Assembly: GCA_013414765.1 (NCBI GenBank)
Contig: CP058708.1
Coordinates: 1,421,553-1,485,552, forward strand
DNA length: 64,000 nucleotides
Source of the DNA: Candidatus Accumulibacter cognatus
Lineage (GTDB): Bacteria > Pseudomonadota > Gammaproteobacteria > Burkholderiales > Rhodocyclaceae
Reading direction: 5' to 3'
This document shows, in pieces, positions 48,955 to 54,088 of this stretch. Position 1 is the stretch's first letter, and the number at the start of each line of letters is the position of its first letter. A program made the position numbers and the translations under genes. Under the pieces are notes generated by a model, which did no database searches, was not told the origin of the DNA, and worked only from the letters and a program-made list of their open reading frames with translations.

Positions 48955-48963
48955 TTACTGCCA
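48955..48963. repeat. left target-site duplication of the IS4-type element
   Basis: TTACTGCCA directly abuts the left end; the identical 9 bases follow the right end at 52911-52919. Confidence 0.85.
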
Positions 48964-49072
48964 CTGAAGTTTAGACACACGCGTGCTCCGCTCGCCGGGT
49001 TTTCGCGGAGGCGAGCGATGGCTTTCAAGACAATGGCATTCCCCAGCGCCGATCGACGCTGGGCGAGACGTC

Positions 49073-49393
49073 TCAACACTGCAAACGCTGATCCTGACCG
49101 GGGAGAGGCATCACGAATTGACCGGACTTCGAGTCGTAGGCGTCGCGCACGGGAAGTCCGATAAATTGCATGCGCAGCCACTGGGCGAAAAGGCCCGCAG
49201 TGATCATGGCACCCTTTCTCCAGGGGGCGATGGCCATCAGCGGAAAGGACGGCCACAACTGCAGGGCGAGCAGTTGCGTCAACGCGTAGGCCGTGGAGCG
49301 AATCTGCATCCACAGTTCCAGCGCGGCCTTCGACTGCTGCCACAGATTGGCCACGCCCCACCAGCGCTTCAGGTTGTGAAACAAGGGCTCGAT
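49073..49393 (-). pseudogene. C-terminal part of the interrupted IS4-type transposase
   Basis: Starting at the junction with the inserted element the frame reads IEPLFHNLKRWWGVANLWQQ, then SKAALELWMQIRSTAYALTQLL, to a stop at 49073. EP-x-F-x-x-x-K contains the catalytic Glu of an IS4-type DDE transposase (the YREK-like region). It joins in frame with the N-terminal part ending at 51758. Confidence 0.8.
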
Positions 49394-51757
49394 ATACCAT
49401 CACGGATGCCGCTATAAATTTGGCGGGAACGACCACCGCACCGAAATTGAGTCGAGCCGCCCTCTTGGGGTTGGCACAATGGCTGGAGAGGCGAACTCGC
49501 CCTGAAATCTCGACTCGAAATGCTGTGGGGACTGATGATGCCTGCGGATTGGCGCCGCGTGATCCGTCTGCTGAGCCCCCTGGCGCTACGCCAATAGCCT
49601 TCAGTCCGCGGCACGGAAGCCCAAGGTGATGAACAGCAAGAGCGCCCCGTGGCCGTTGCTGAGCGAGAAGGTCCGGAACGATCATCGGGACCGTCTCGCG
49701 GTGGTGTACGTTCGCCAGTCCACCTTGCAGCAACTGGTTCGACATCAGGAGTCGACTCGTTTGCAGTACGGACTGGTAGAGCGGGCAGTGGAACTGGGCT
49801 GGCCGCGCTCTCGAGTCGAAGTGATCGACGATGATCAGGGTAAATCGGGGGCCAGCGCGGAAGGCCGGGTGGGCTTTCAGCGGCTGGTGAGCGAGGTCAG
49901 CCTCAACCATGTCGGCATCGTGCTGGGCCTCGAGATGTCCCGCCTGGCGCGCTCATGCCGGGACTGGTATCAACTGCTGGAAGTCTGCGGACTGTTCGGG
50001 ACCTTGATTGGCGATCTGGATGGCATTTATGATCCGACCGATTACAACGACCGACTGCTACTGGGTTTGAAGGGGACGATGTCGGAAGCGGAGTTGCACG
50101 TGTTGAAGCAGCGCCTGCTGGCCGGCAAGCGCGCCAAGGCCACCCGGGGTGAACTCGGAATGCAGGTGCCGATCGGCTATGTGCGCCGGCCGTCGGGTGA
50201 AGTAATCAAGGATCCCGATGAGCAGGCGCAGACGGTGATCGGGCTGATCTTCGATCAATTCGAGCGTTGCGGCACGCTCAACGGGATGCTCCAGTATCTG
50301 GTCCGCCACCAGATCCAGCTTCCCTGTCGCGTGCGTACCGGGGTGAATCGAGGCGAGCTGGAATGGCATGCGCCGAACCGGGTGACGCTCTCGAATCTGC
50401 TGCACAACCCGCTTTACGCCGGCGCCTACGCCTATGGTCGTCGGCCAACGGATATCCGGCGCAAGCAACCCGGACGGCCGGCGACGGGCCGACGGGTGGC
50501 GCCACGGGAGCAATGGGCCGTCCTGCTCAAGGATCACCTGCCGGCCTACATCAGCTGGGAACAATACGAGCGCCACCTGCGTCAGCTGGAAGCCAATGGC
50601 ATCAAAGCTCAGGGCGCCATCCGGCATGGCCCGTCGCTCCTCTCGGGGCTGCTCGTGTGTGGGCGATGCGGACATCGCATGATGACCCGGTATAACAGCA
50701 GTGGCACCGGGCTGCGCTACGCCTGCGATACGATGGCGGCCAGCTACGGCCAGGCCCTTTGCCAATCGCTGGCTGGCCAGGCGCTCGATGACTTCATCAC
50801 CGAGCAGGTCCTGGCAGCCCTGCAACCGGCCGCGCTGGAGATCAGCCTGCAGGCGCTCGAAGATCTCGAAAGCGAGCGCGAACAATTGCACCGGCATTGG
50901 CAGCAGCGCCTCGAACGAGCCCATTACCAGGCCGAGCGGGCATACCGGCAGTTCAATGCAGTCGAACCCGAGAACCGTTTGGTGGCCCGCACCCTGGAGC
51001 AGCAGTGGGAAGCCGCACTGACCGTCGAAGGCGAATTGCAGGCCGAGTATGCGCGCTTTGCCGCCGAACAACCGGCCACGCTCAGCGCGGCCGAACGTGA
51101 GGCCATCCGCCGGCTCGCCTGCGACATTCCCGCCCTGTGGCACGCGCCCACGACGATGGCTGCCGATCGGCAGGCCATCATTCGGCAACTCGTGACGCGG
51201 GTAGTGGTCACCGTCCAGGGCGAGAGCGAACGGGTCGATGTCCAGGTGCATTGGATCGGCGGCCACGACACGCAGGCGACCCTCATCCGGCCGGTGGCCC
51301 GTCTCGACCAACTGAGCTATTACCCGAAGTTGATGGCGCGCGTGGCCGAGTTGCACGCCCAGGGTGAAAATGCCGCCGCCATTGCCCGTCGGCTGAACGC
51401 CGAAGATTGGCGCCCGGCCAAGCACTGCGACACCTTCAACGCGCCCATGGTGCTCACGTTGCTGTTGCGCCAGGGTCTGCGCAGCCGCCAGTCCGCTTAC
51501 GCGGGCATGATCGAAGAGGCACAGGAAGAACTGACGCTGAATGAACTTGCCCGTCGTCTGAATGTCCCTCAGCCAACGCTGTATAGCTGGCTGCGCCGAG
51601 GTCTACTGCACGGCCGGCAGGTGATCCATGCCGACCATCCACTCTGGCTCATTCAGGCCGACGAAGCAGAACTGGCCAGGCTGAGCGCGTTGCGGGCAAG
51701 TGCGAAGTCATAACGAACTTCACTCTTATGGAGGTTTTATGTCTGGTAAATGTCGAT
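49394..51757 (+). mobile_element. 2,364-bp single-gene element carrying a large serine recombinase
   Basis: The element interrupts the IS transposase between GI and EPLF. The left junction reads GGGCTCGAT/ATACC (49385 on), the right GGTAAATGT/CGATCCCCC (51745 on). CGAT occurs at both junctions, and removing one copy plus the insert restores the uninterrupted transposase codons GGG ATC GAG CCC. A short shared core without terminal inverted repeats is what serine-recombinase insertion leaves. Cargo is limited to the recombinase; 49394-49628 contains no other gene I can support. Confidence 0.8.
49629..51713 (+). CDS. large serine recombinase
   Basis: A 694-residue site-specific recombinase. The N-terminal resolvase-type domain has the nucleophile Ser31 in YVRQST and the catalytic EMSRLARS block (102-109). 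A recombinase domain follows (VPIGYVRRPSGEV, LHNPLYAGAYAYGRR), then a zinc ribbon with Cys344, Cys347, Cys366 and Cys378, a long coiled coil (about 395-480), and a C-terminal helix-turn-helix (LTLNELARRLNVPQPTLYSWLRRG). Likely drives integration and excision of its own element. GTG 49626 or ATG 49629 are both possible starts. The frame is intact, so it may be active. Confidence 0.92.
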   Translation: MNSKSAPWPLLSEKVRNDHRDRLAVVYVRQSTLQQLVRHQESTRLQYGLVERAVELGWPRSRVEVIDDDQGKSGASAEGRVGFQRLVSEVSLNHVGIVLGLEMSRLARSCRDWYQLLEVCGLFGTLIGDLDGIYDPTDYNDRLLLGLKGTMSEAELHVLKQRLLAGKRAKATRGELGMQVPIGYVRRPSGEVIKDPDEQAQTVIGLIFDQFERCGTLNGMLQYLVRHQIQLPCRVRTGVNRGELEWHAPNRVTLSNLLHNPLYAGAYAYGRRPTDIRRKQPGRPATGRRVAPREQWAVLLKDHLPAYISWEQYERHLRQLEANGIKAQGAIRHGPSLLSGLLVCGRCGHRMMTRYNSSGTGLRYACDTMAASYGQALCQSLAGQALDDFITEQVLAALQPAALEISLQALEDLESEREQLHRHWQQRLERAHYQAERAYRQFNAVEPENRLVARTLEQQWEAALTVEGELQAEYARFAAEQPATLSAAEREAIRRLACDIPALWHAPTTMAADRQAIIRQLVTRVVVTVQGESERVDVQVHWIGGHDTQATLIRPVARLDQLSYYPKLMARVAELHAQGENAAAIARRLNAEDWRPAKHCDTFNAPMVLTLLLRQGLRSRQSAYAGMIEEAQEELTLNELARRLNVPQPTLYSWLRRGLLHGRQVIHADHPLWLIQADEAELARLSALRASAKS

Positions 51758-52714
51758 CCCCCAGCGCTCGGCGTAGATCGCGACGACCTGTTGGGCCGAC
51801 AGGTCGGTCTCGGTGGCCAGAATCAGGCGTGGGCGCGACCAGGTGTGATCGGGCAGGAGCATCTCGCACCACACCGCGCGTACCGGGAGCCCCTTCAGGA
51901 ATCGCGCCACAGCGATGACCGAACGCACCCGAACCCGCTGCACCTTGCCGTACAGCATCAGCTCCCTCTCCTGCACCGGCAAGGTTTCGAGCCTCGCCGC
52001 ATCGATCCGCTGGCCGTACTTGCGCTGGCGGCCTCGGCGTTTCGGCTCCGGTTCCGGCGGCAGAAACAAGGCCGTATCGCGGCGCACCTGTCCGATGATG
52101 CGGACCGGTTGTTCGAGCAACGGAAGAATCAGGGTGCGGCGCATGAACCAGGCATCGATCAGCAAGCGCCCCCCCTGGACGTGCCCCCGGACCGAGTCCA
52201 TCAGTTGGCGTGCCCCCCAGAGCTTGCCGCGCTGACCCGATTCTTCGAGCAGCCACGAGCGAATCGGCACCGTCAGCGCCGAACCCAGGCGGACGCGCAC
52301 GACCAGGGCCAGCGTGACCCAGCACTGGCTGTTCAGAAAGGTCGGCCGATTGGCCTTGTGGCTGTGATCGTGCTTGATACTGATCCCCGGCCCGGACTTC
52401 GCGCCGCGCAGAACCAGCGTATCGTCGAGGATCAGGGTGACCAGTTCGGTGGGGCACACCGTCAGCACCAGCTGTAACAAACGCAGCGACAATTCCGTGA
52501 CCGGCACCTGTGCTCGCTCGATGAGCTTGTAATAGGTGGTCCAGTGTGCCTCCCGGCGAATGGCCCCGATGGCCCGCGTGACCCAGCCTTCCGGGTTGAG
52601 CAGGCAACCGATCAGCAGTTCGACGAAGGTCCGGCGAGAACGCGGTGGCACCGCCACCAGGAGAAAGGAAATCCATTCCGAGAGTAGCAAGCAGACGTTG
52701 GCAGCGAGAGACAT
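51758..52714 (-). pseudogene. N-terminal part of the interrupted IS4-type transposase
   Basis: From ATG 52714 (MSLAANVCLLLSEWISFLL) the frame carries IS4-type DDE features: LILDDTLVLRGAKSGPGIS with the first catalytic Asp, KHDHSHKANRPTFLNSQCWV, a second Asp in RLLIDAWFMRR, and ATETDLSAQQVVAIYAERWG at the junction. The native protein would continue IEPLFHNLK in the left fragment; instead it reads five foreign codons and stops at 51737. Confidence 0.85.
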
Positions 52715-52749
52715 GAGGGAAAGTCCAGGATCGAAAACGATCCCTCATT

Positions 52750-52802
52750 GGTCGCCGCGCGCTGCTTGCGCGAGAACCCTGCGCAAGCAGCGCGCGGCGA
52801 CC
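52750..52802. repeat. perfect 22-bp inverted repeat (9-base loop) upstream of the IS4-type transposase
   Basis: The arm GGTCGCCGCGCGCTGCTTGCGC (22 bases; 52750-52771) is exactly mirrored at 52781-52802. It lies inside the IS, between its right end and the transposase ATG at 52714, so it would fold in any transcript entering from outside. The likely role is shielding the transposase from read-through expression, as known for other IS families. Confidence 0.75.
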
Positions 52803-52910
52803 TCACGATTCCCACGTCATGTCAAGTCTTTTTTGTATTTCTTCGAAAAATTTTTGCGGCGCCGGAATGTCTTCGGCATCCGCTGGCGATTGCGAGTGTC
52901 TAAACTTCAG

Positions 52911-52919
52911 TTACTGCCA
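52911..52919. repeat. right target-site duplication of the IS4-type element
   Basis: TTACTGCCA, identical to 48955-48963. Confidence 0.85.
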
Positions 52920-53051: not shown

Positions 53052-54088
53052 TCACGATTGAATCTTCTGGAAGGTTTGGAAGTTCAGGGTCAATAGGGAC
53101 TGTAGCGCCTTGGCGTGGATGGTGTGGGTATCTTGCAAGCAGCGTTCGATGGCCGTCGTGAAGGAATGGAAGTCGGGGTAGTACTTGGCGTAGAGGCACT
53201 GCTTTTTGACGAACTTCCACAAACGCTCGATGAGGTTCAAATTTGGGGAGTAGGTGGGTAAAAAGAGCAACTCGATCTTCAGTTTCTCGGCGCAGGTTTT
53301 CACCAACGCACAACGCTGATAGCGGGCGTTGTCCAGGACGACCGTCATAGGCAGCGTGGGCCGTAGGGTAACCAGTTTCTCCAGCAAAGCACAGACGCTG
53401 AGCGAATTGATGTAGGTGGAATTGACGACGGTGACGACCTCTTTGGTGACGGCGTCGAGCGCACCCAGTACGTTGAAGCGCTGCCGGCCCGAGGGCGCCT
53501 TGATCCAGACCCGAGCAAGGCACCACACCACCGACAGGAAGGCGCCCAAGACAAAGTGTGCCGCGTCTACGAAGAACACGGCACGTTGGCCCGCTTGGGC
53601 TTCTGCCAAACGCGGTTCAAGTTCTTTTTTTTAAAGGCTTCCTGGACCTCGGGATCCGCCTTGGCCGGCAGGGTGCCGGTCTTCAGGCGTCTCATCCCGC
53701 ACTTCTCTCGCAGGAAAAGCCGCACCTGAGTCGGCGAGCGGCTCAAACCCGTGAGCTTTCTGATCGCATCCACGGCCTCATGGATCGAAGCCGGCGGATG
53801 GGTGAGAAAATAAGCCCCGATCGTCTCCTGATGCGCCACCAGTTCGCTCTGCGGCCGACGGAAATGCAGTTCCTTCACCCCGGCGACGCCGCCCTCCACC
53901 TACTGCTGGAGGTAGGTGCGAAGCGTCTTGCCGCTCACGCCCGCGAGCCGCGCGATATCTTGATGCGCAAGCCCCTGGCTTTTCAGCCACAGCGCTTCCA
54001 TCTTGCGTCGCACGTGGGGATGCGGATGGTGAAATCGCTCGTGCTCTAAGGCGTCCGCCTCCGCCGGGGTAAAGGTCAGTCTCAGCAT
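53052..54088 (-). pseudogene. IS630-type transposase with an in-frame stop and an A8 frameshift site
   Basis: Frame 1 from ATG 54088 encodes the N-terminal helix-turn-helix (PHVRRKMEALWLKSQGLAHQ through GVSGKTLRTYLQQ), then a TAG at 53900-53902 where relatives have Tyr. The same frame continues EGGVAGVKELHFRRPQSELV to DPEVQEAFKKK. At a run of eight A (read on this strand, just before GAACTTG at about 53622-53632) the frame must shift by -1 into the catalytic part: FFVDAAHFVLGAF (first Asp), VVLDNARYQ (second Asp), and SPNLNLIERLWKFVKK (Glu), ending at 53052. The slippery run may be a programmed frameshift; the TAG probably inactivates the gene. Confidence 0.85.

Follow-up and report, generated by a model that had tools for sequence, protein, structure and literature searches.

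The window analysed here, a 64,000-nucleotide stretch of Candidatus Accumulibacter cognatus contig CP058708.1 (positions 1,421,553 to 1,485,552), contains a 2,364-bp mini-element built around a large serine recombinase (LSR), which lies inside the transposase gene of an IS701-type insertion sequence (IS). Most insertions of this element and its close relatives were found directly before one and the same glutamate codon, presumably catalytic, of transposases from several families, and the start codon of the leader that precedes the LSR gene lies at the opposite end of the integrated element. We consider it probable that this is an autonomous LSR element that preys on transposases, has a conserved active-site codon as its landing site, and favours LSR output when in circular form. 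Mobility and target are well supported by the sequence comparisons and we infer the expression switch; both the target rule and the start-codon arrangement appear unusual.

The insert and its empty sites

Exactly 2,364 bp lie between the two halves of the transposase (52714-51758 and 49393-49073, minus strand), as a preliminary description of this DNA had claimed, and empty copies of the IS in the same genome agree with this. Copies L003 and L004 showed 4 mismatches in 1,584 aligned bases and copy L005, truncated at one end, 5 mismatches in 1,522; the site was gap-free in all three and likewise unbroken in L006, which is 91-92% identical. The transposase frame of the intact empty copy L003 has 425 codons, the length that had been proposed for the rejoined halves. 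These empty copies indicate that the insertion occurred without target duplication, and because of them the insertion itself is not explicable by chance. The junctions share the 5-nt repeat TCGAT, which contains, but extends beyond, the CGAT reported earlier. The joint can be placed anywhere within TCGAT, so that coordinates 49394-51757 are equivalent to 49391-51754, those given by the TC core (49389-49390 / 51753-51754) backed by homologues. Neither terminal inverted repeats of its own nor a target duplication was found for the 2,364-bp unit, whose ends share TCGAT alone. Only one copy of the element is present in this genome. The window carries T at 49375 and C at 51759, as does L006, and the three near-identical empty copies carry G and G; these positions flank the joint and may reflect allele exchange or a different source copy.

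The location of the insert within an IS that has a target duplication would also suit a normal part of that IS, or a passenger moved by a DDE transposase alone. Given the other copies of the IS that lack the insert, and relatives of the element that occupy the same internal joint in other IS families, we regard this explanation as scarcely credible; a normal IS component, a possibility already raised in the preliminary description, was ruled out by the empty copies. The transposase, formerly described as IS4-type, was assigned by NCBIfam to the IS701 family (NF049999), the long half with an E of 1.4e-108, above the cut-off, and the short half with an E of 1.1e-25, below it.

The recombinase has the 694 residues previously reported when read from its ATG, and 695 from a GTG. 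Its Pfam domains, Resolvase (PF00239, E 1.4e-18) at the N-terminus, Recombinase (PF07508, E 1.4e-11) and a zinc ribbon (PF13408, E 1.6e-8), follow one another in the LSR order, with the catalytic domain at residues 25-176 and HTH-like matches near the C-terminus (HTH_17, E 1.9e-5, below the cut-off). The IS607-type order, with the DNA-binding domain before the catalytic one, was not found in this protein. The best NCBIfam matches, XisF and Ccr, were far under their cut-offs; as a Ccr, the protein reached 38 (CcrC), 36 (CcrA) and 25 bits (CcrB) against cut-offs of 900, 700 and 900. Relatives in the PDB were weak by sequence (YokA, E 6.2e-7). Judged from empty copies and joined flanks, the element inserts at a short core and duplicates no target, as LSR elements do. 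By its domains and its mode of insertion the element is of the LSR kind, and it is intact-looking. It carries no obvious cargo, as had been proposed; one long open reading frame (ORF) is indeed present, but a split ORF1 and a small ORF2 lie upstream of it, so the element is not single-gene.

Relatives and the transposase glutamate codon

In one scan, 35 loci in named genomes were found to encode relatives of the LSR. On plasmids, 548 records matched it, 545 of them at under 60% identity. In 15 of the 41 near genomes, its own included, there was some match (E up to 0.001), often a weak one; a class-wide search with an E up to 1e-150 retrieved just one of 369 genomes, the window's own, and no relative was confirmed on viral contigs. 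The close group comprises 14 distinct elements with both ends placed (2,364-2,629 bp, LSRs about 51-72% identical), which keep the same layout; homologues always accompanied by more cargo, which the preliminary description had set against itself, were not what this group showed. Four 2,629-bp copies in a Singulisphaera genome (L103, L105, L107 and L110) lie at different sites without a mismatch, which suggests recent movement, and a Sorangium genome holds two copies (L015 and L035). In these two genomes ends were set where the identity between copies stops. Elsewhere they were placed by homology to known ends and partly by recognition of the transposase frame, and ends and targets are therefore not fully independent; for the window and the Singulisphaera copies they are independent, by virtue of the empty copies and of the breaks in identity, respectively. 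Six one-sided loci (L014, L016, L046, L081, L082 and L112) were kept outside the counts and are given apart, and other close loci (L018/L111, L019, L043, L044, L045, L113, L114 and L115) were also outside them. The LSR frame of L080 is broken in that record.

The joint repeat ranged from 2 to 15 nt and, judged by eye, only TC (GA) was common to 13 of the 14 elements, the remaining one having ACCA, so CGAT fails as a general tag. The repeat is GAG in the four Singulisphaera copies and 15 nt long in L077, whose joint is the least certain.

These 14 elements account for 18 insertions, and in 14 of them the joint separates an Ile or Val codon of a transposase from the Glu codon, presumably catalytic, that ends an RWxIE-type motif; the GA of this Glu codon is the common core. 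The residues around the joint (^) were RWGI^E in the window, RWSI^E in L011, RHLV^E in L012, RWDI^E in L013, RNEV^E in L017, RWTI^E in L075, RWVV^E in L076 and L079, RWRI^E in L077, RWAI^E in L078, RWIV^E in L116, RSIV^E in L103 and L107, and RNII^E in L105; the joints of L103, L107 and L105 were placed within the GAG repeat and that of L077 within the 15 repeated bases. According to the best NCBIfam model, three of these 14 targets are IS701, three IS4 and eight IS5, the IS5 targets of L012, L017, L079 and L103 (incomplete reads) being under the curated cut-off. The target of L011 aligns with the Tn5 transposase over 300 residues, with YEQRWSIEEFHK on YTHRWRIEEFHK, and we take the Glu at the joint to be the third acidic residue of the active site (E326 in Tn5; YREK motif in IS4-type enzymes). 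The recombinase would land on codons that transposases can hardly change. The earlier claim that the target lies inside another IS was right as far as it went; what recurs is mostly the same Glu codon across several transposase families.

Five of the six one-sided loci (L014, L016, L046, L082 and L112) have their end right beside this Glu residue; L081, whose end is not placed, continues through NPIE. NCBIfam pointed to IS4 for L014, L016 and L082 and to IS630 for L112 and L081, all of them fragments under the cut-off, and gave no match for the L046 stretch. L046, a 65% relative from the window's genus, seems to have its left end deleted and fused to transposase sequence; its right end lies at an IEEAF motif, in sense orientation.

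The right end of most relatives reads GGAGG, a spacer, ATG and then TGG N6 TC, and the left end reads N6 CCA after the core, giving a predicted attachment site of the circle (attP) of the form TGG N6 core N6 CCA in most close elements. Of the 11 antisense insertions, 9 have CCA, the complement of the RWxIE Trp codon, at +7 in the B' arm of the target, the same position as the CCA of the P' arm. Since every Glu codon is GAR, a GA core fits both versions. On our reading, the recombinase may be tuned to TGG N6 GA. In L077 the P' arm and the B' arm of the target are identical for the first 9 nt (AATGCGCCA) and slightly beyond.

It should be considered that the recombinase could be of a relaxed, multi-targeting (TndX-like) type accepting any GA/TC core with a loose flank, so that transposases would be hit through their abundance. 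Multi-targeting LSRs are a published class (PMC10083194), the way in which ends were placed could favour transposase cases, and four of the 18 insertions lay off such a Glu codon, which weighs against the target rule: L015 and L035 in a Sorangium repeat protein, L080 in an IS66 TnpB with the joint repeat ACCA, and L110 (Singulisphaera) in no identified target. Nevertheless, the abundance of transposases cannot choose a codon, and it consequently fails to explain why 14 of the 18 insertions fell on one residue in three transposase families, with five of the six one-sided ends beside it. Relaxed specificity also sits poorly with the CCA shared by the B' arm and, in 12 of the 14 elements, the P' arm. 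Further, DUF4368 was absent among the seven Pfam matches to the LSR (E up to 0.001), although this domain is present in 63% of the TndX/TnpX multi-targeting clade and its absence is therefore not a strict test (PMC10083194). We consider relaxed specificity an unlikely account of these insertions.

A leader split by integration

In the integrated element, ORF1 fills the stretch between the left end and the LSR start and has no start of its own at a conserved place. A circle would leave the transposase frame whole and would fuse the right-end GGAGG-ATG in frame to the left-end ORF1. Joining the ends as a circle set the right-end start in frame with ORF1 in all 14 distinct close elements, and no stop followed the joint for 236-327 nt (on average 270 nt, versus 39 and 43 nt in the shifted frames); the frame was kept across eight different joint-to-stop lengths. 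GGAG precedes the ORF1 start in 11 of the 14 elements, and in 11 of the 14 the ORF1 stop and the LSR start overlap in an ATGA or GTGA (in the window, TGA 49627-49629 overlaps the GTG). Two cyanobacterial elements, with the ORF1 start 82 and 85 nt ahead of the joint, still keep the frame. Many ORF1 peptides share an LLxLAxWLxRR-like stretch, and ORF2 of the window, MLWGLMMPADWRRVIRLLSPLALRQ, is the counterpart of a W..LP..RR..L peptide of the relatives. Runs of 7-8 C were observed at the ORF1/ORF2 overlap in the leaders of L076, L077, L018, L019 and L103, where programmed slippage might fuse the two frames.

We propose that excision as a circle would restore the transposase, and that ORF1 and the LSR would then be translated as a coupled chain, the coupling being suggested because the ORF1 stop overlaps the LSR start in most close elements. 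The circle would make recombinase and integrate into a fresh transposase copy; integration would cut the start codon off, and LSR output would fall. Excision would probably require low read-through expression, and ORF1 or ORF2 may perhaps be a directionality factor, which is a guess.

A split leader was also found among distant relatives (LSR about 40% identical), which measure 2.6-3.4 kb and, in the case of those with DUF5372, carry extra small genes. Ten DUF5372 loci were examined and end placement was tried for L049, L050, L090, L120, L021, L022, L020, L023 and L048; L024 stayed outside end placement, and other distant loci (e.g. L025-L040, L117-L119) outside the counts. In seven distinct elements (L049, L050, L090, L120, L021 with its copy L022, L020 and L023) the left end severs the leader, and an in-frame ATG precedes the joint by 13-16 nt. 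L048 did not keep the frame at the joint tried and was scored as a miss; alignment by eye with L049, a 94% relative, would bring it into frame. The leader of a Rhizobium element (L094/L097/L099, 2,619 bp) is in frame across the joint. As first scored, 8 of the 9 distinct distant elements, and 22 of the 23 distinct elements across all groups, have the circle frame. The L049 leader, the one case tested, matched DUF5372 in Pfam (PF17342, E 1.9e-26), and the L094 leader had no Pfam match. At the right end of L090 and L120, the LSR stop overlaps the leader start (TGATG), and in their circle translation could pass from the LSR to the leader, as a circular chain of coupled genes.

Several observations weigh against the proposed switch. 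Three Streptomyces elements would use a GTG without GGAG as the ORF1 start, an ATG is also present after their joint, and the LSR start lies 15 nt past the ORF1 stop. A codon-position test on five leaders of the same length gave a weak signal in the 5' half (differences of 0.46, 0.41 and 0.52 at positions 1, 2 and 3); in the 3' half, neither ORF1 nor ORF2 showed a coding pattern. No sigma-70-like promoter was found near the right end, and the exact circle joint was not found in the assembly of the window's genome, an assembly reflecting the main state. The promoter and terminator scan gave one promoter-like site, inside the LSR gene, against 0.9 expected, and no terminator; the ORF1 and ORF2 peptides had no Pfam match except one at an E of 0.074, which we took as chance.

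The weak codon-position signal would fit a non-coding leader, in which the ATG-like end is a recombinase binding site only and the open frames result from GC-rich chance and descent. The GC content of the leaders is 0.42-0.68, mononucleotide shuffling gave a per-element chance of an open frame of 0.7-17%, and the elements are related, so that the counts are not independent. Chance and descent have then to accommodate a frame kept in the 14 close and in eight of the nine distant elements (as first scored) despite the varying joint-to-stop lengths, the distant starts of the cyanobacterial elements, the recurrent stop overlap and GGAG, and the DUF5372 match in a distant leader. We judge a non-coding leader to be quite improbable.

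Table 1. Coordinates of the element, its host IS and their parts in the window
Feature	Position	Strand	Remarks
LSR mini-element, 2,364 bp, TC core	49391..51754	+	Empty copies L003-L006; homologous ends elsewhere
P arm of predicted attP (TGG N6 TC)	51744..51754	+	TGG at -11 in 10/14 elements
P' arm of predicted attP (N6 CCA)	49391..49399	+	CCA at +7 in 12/14 elements
LSR	49626..51713	+	695 codons from GTG 49626, 694 from ATG 49629
Shine-Dalgarno-like GGAGG before ORF1 ATG	51730..51734	+	
ORF1 5' end, ATG, 16 nt to joint	51739..51754	+	Reads into transposase when integrated
ORF1 remainder	49391..49629	+	84 codons in circle, MSGKCRYTITDAAIN...LLGLAQWLERR...
ORF2, +1 frame inside ORF1, MLWGLMMPADWRRVIRLLSPLALRQ	49520..49597	+	Putative coding sequence
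IS701-type IS including insert	48964..52910	-	Terminal inverted repeats 48963-48982 and 52892-52911
IS target duplication, left copy TTACTGCCA	48955..48963	.	
IS target duplication, right copy TTACTGCCA	52911..52919	.	
IS701 transposase 5' part	51755..52714	-	Ends RWGI directly before Glu codon
IS701 transposase 3' part, EPLFHNLKRWWG...	49073..49390	-	First codon Glu GAG (49388-49390, minus)

A perfect 22-bp inverted repeat with a 9-nt loop (52750-52802) was observed inside the IS, just upstream of the transposase start. Adjoining the IS, at 53052-54088, the ORF list revealed by eye a second transposase-like gene with broken frames, the C-terminal part of which reads like IS630.

Distant targets and comparison with known systems

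Distant elements were also found at short transposase motifs. For five DUF5372 elements, all six insertions translated sit just before the Glu of a K/N-x-x-x-E motif in transposase frames (KGRIE, KGKLE, NGMSE, KGRVE, KGKVE and KAAVE for L049, L050, L090, L120, L021 and L022); the best NCBIfam models were IS21 for L049, L021 and L022, IS481 for L050 (under the cut-off), IS3/IS2 for L090 and ISNCY for L120. The Rhizobium element splits an IS3-type frame at YN..[RH]PHS in its three copies, IS3 being the best or second-best NCBIfam model of these targets, which are fragments under the cut-off. In rve enzymes, we assume, the catalytic Glu lies within these two motifs. A single IS3-type transposase gene on Rhizobium sp. 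T1473 plasmid NZ_CP149874.1 (about 479-485 kb) was apparently hit twice, by L090 at NGMSE and by L099 (2,619 bp) at YN^EIHPHS some 45 residues further, and the joined frames continue each other.

We lean slightly towards a superfamily of small LSR elements, in which each lineage would use a hardly changeable transposase motif, place its landing site in the start of its first gene, leave translation of that gene from the true start to the excised circle, and thereby make integration its own off-switch. The motifs would be W-x-I/V-E for the close group (IS4, IS5, IS701 and, from one-sided loci, IS630) and K/N-x-x-x-E (rve-type transposases) and YN..RPHS (IS3-type OrfB) for distant elements. If true, this would be a class of mobile DNA whose lasting landing site is formed by the active-site codons of other mobile DNA, a site that is multi-copy, dispensable for the cell and hard to mutate without loss of transposition. 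A start codon placed across attP would likewise provide a circle switch at the level of translation, a step beyond circle-formed promoters. With its readable targets (TGG N6 GA and others), the family would also be a graded series of LSRs in which to trace the evolution of LSR specificity, and it may explain 'recombinase family protein' genes inside broken transposase genes. No such element was described among the titles and abstract openings listed, supplements, preprint servers and most subscription journals being outside that search, and no mention of DUF5372 was found in the literature searched.

Parts of this arrangement have precedents. Lyras and Rood are said to have described in 2000, for TnpX of Tn4451/Tn4453, recombinase expression that depends on formation of the circle. 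In the integration-dependent immunity of mycobacteriophage BPs, the attachment site reportedly lies in the repressor gene; the likeness is an attachment site in a regulatory gene of the element, which in BPs is a repressor and would here be the severed start of an operon leader. In ICEclc (Pcir) and ICEKp1, a promoter for the recombinase is formed by the circle (PMC13023037). There too, closing the circle brings the recombinase gene next to an expression signal from the opposite end, but what would be joined here is a ribosome-binding site with a start codon and the first leader codons, not a promoter.

Other systems resemble the element in where it resides. Helper-embedded PICIs have an integrase clade found repeatedly inside genes of another element, where excision restores the gene, but they are satellites with their own replication zone and target prophage late genes (PMC10111431). 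The group II intron RmInt1 in ISRm2011-2 is likewise a mobile element that inhabits a transposase gene, but it depends on RNA splicing and retrohoming instead of DNA recombination (PMC4238363). The IS607 family comprises small serine-recombinase elements as well, with an inverted domain order, whereas the catalytic domain comes first here and the protein is LSR-sized (PMC4058570). Some LSRs target conserved coding sites, and transposase targets may be among the supplementary target-gene lists of the survey that describes them (PMC10083194). The multi-targeting LSRs of that survey share with the present one a catalytic N-terminus, the Recombinase and zinc ribbon domains, a short core and the lack of duplication; unlike them, the present element consists of nearly the LSR alone, mostly targets one transposase residue and has its own leader split (PMC10083194).
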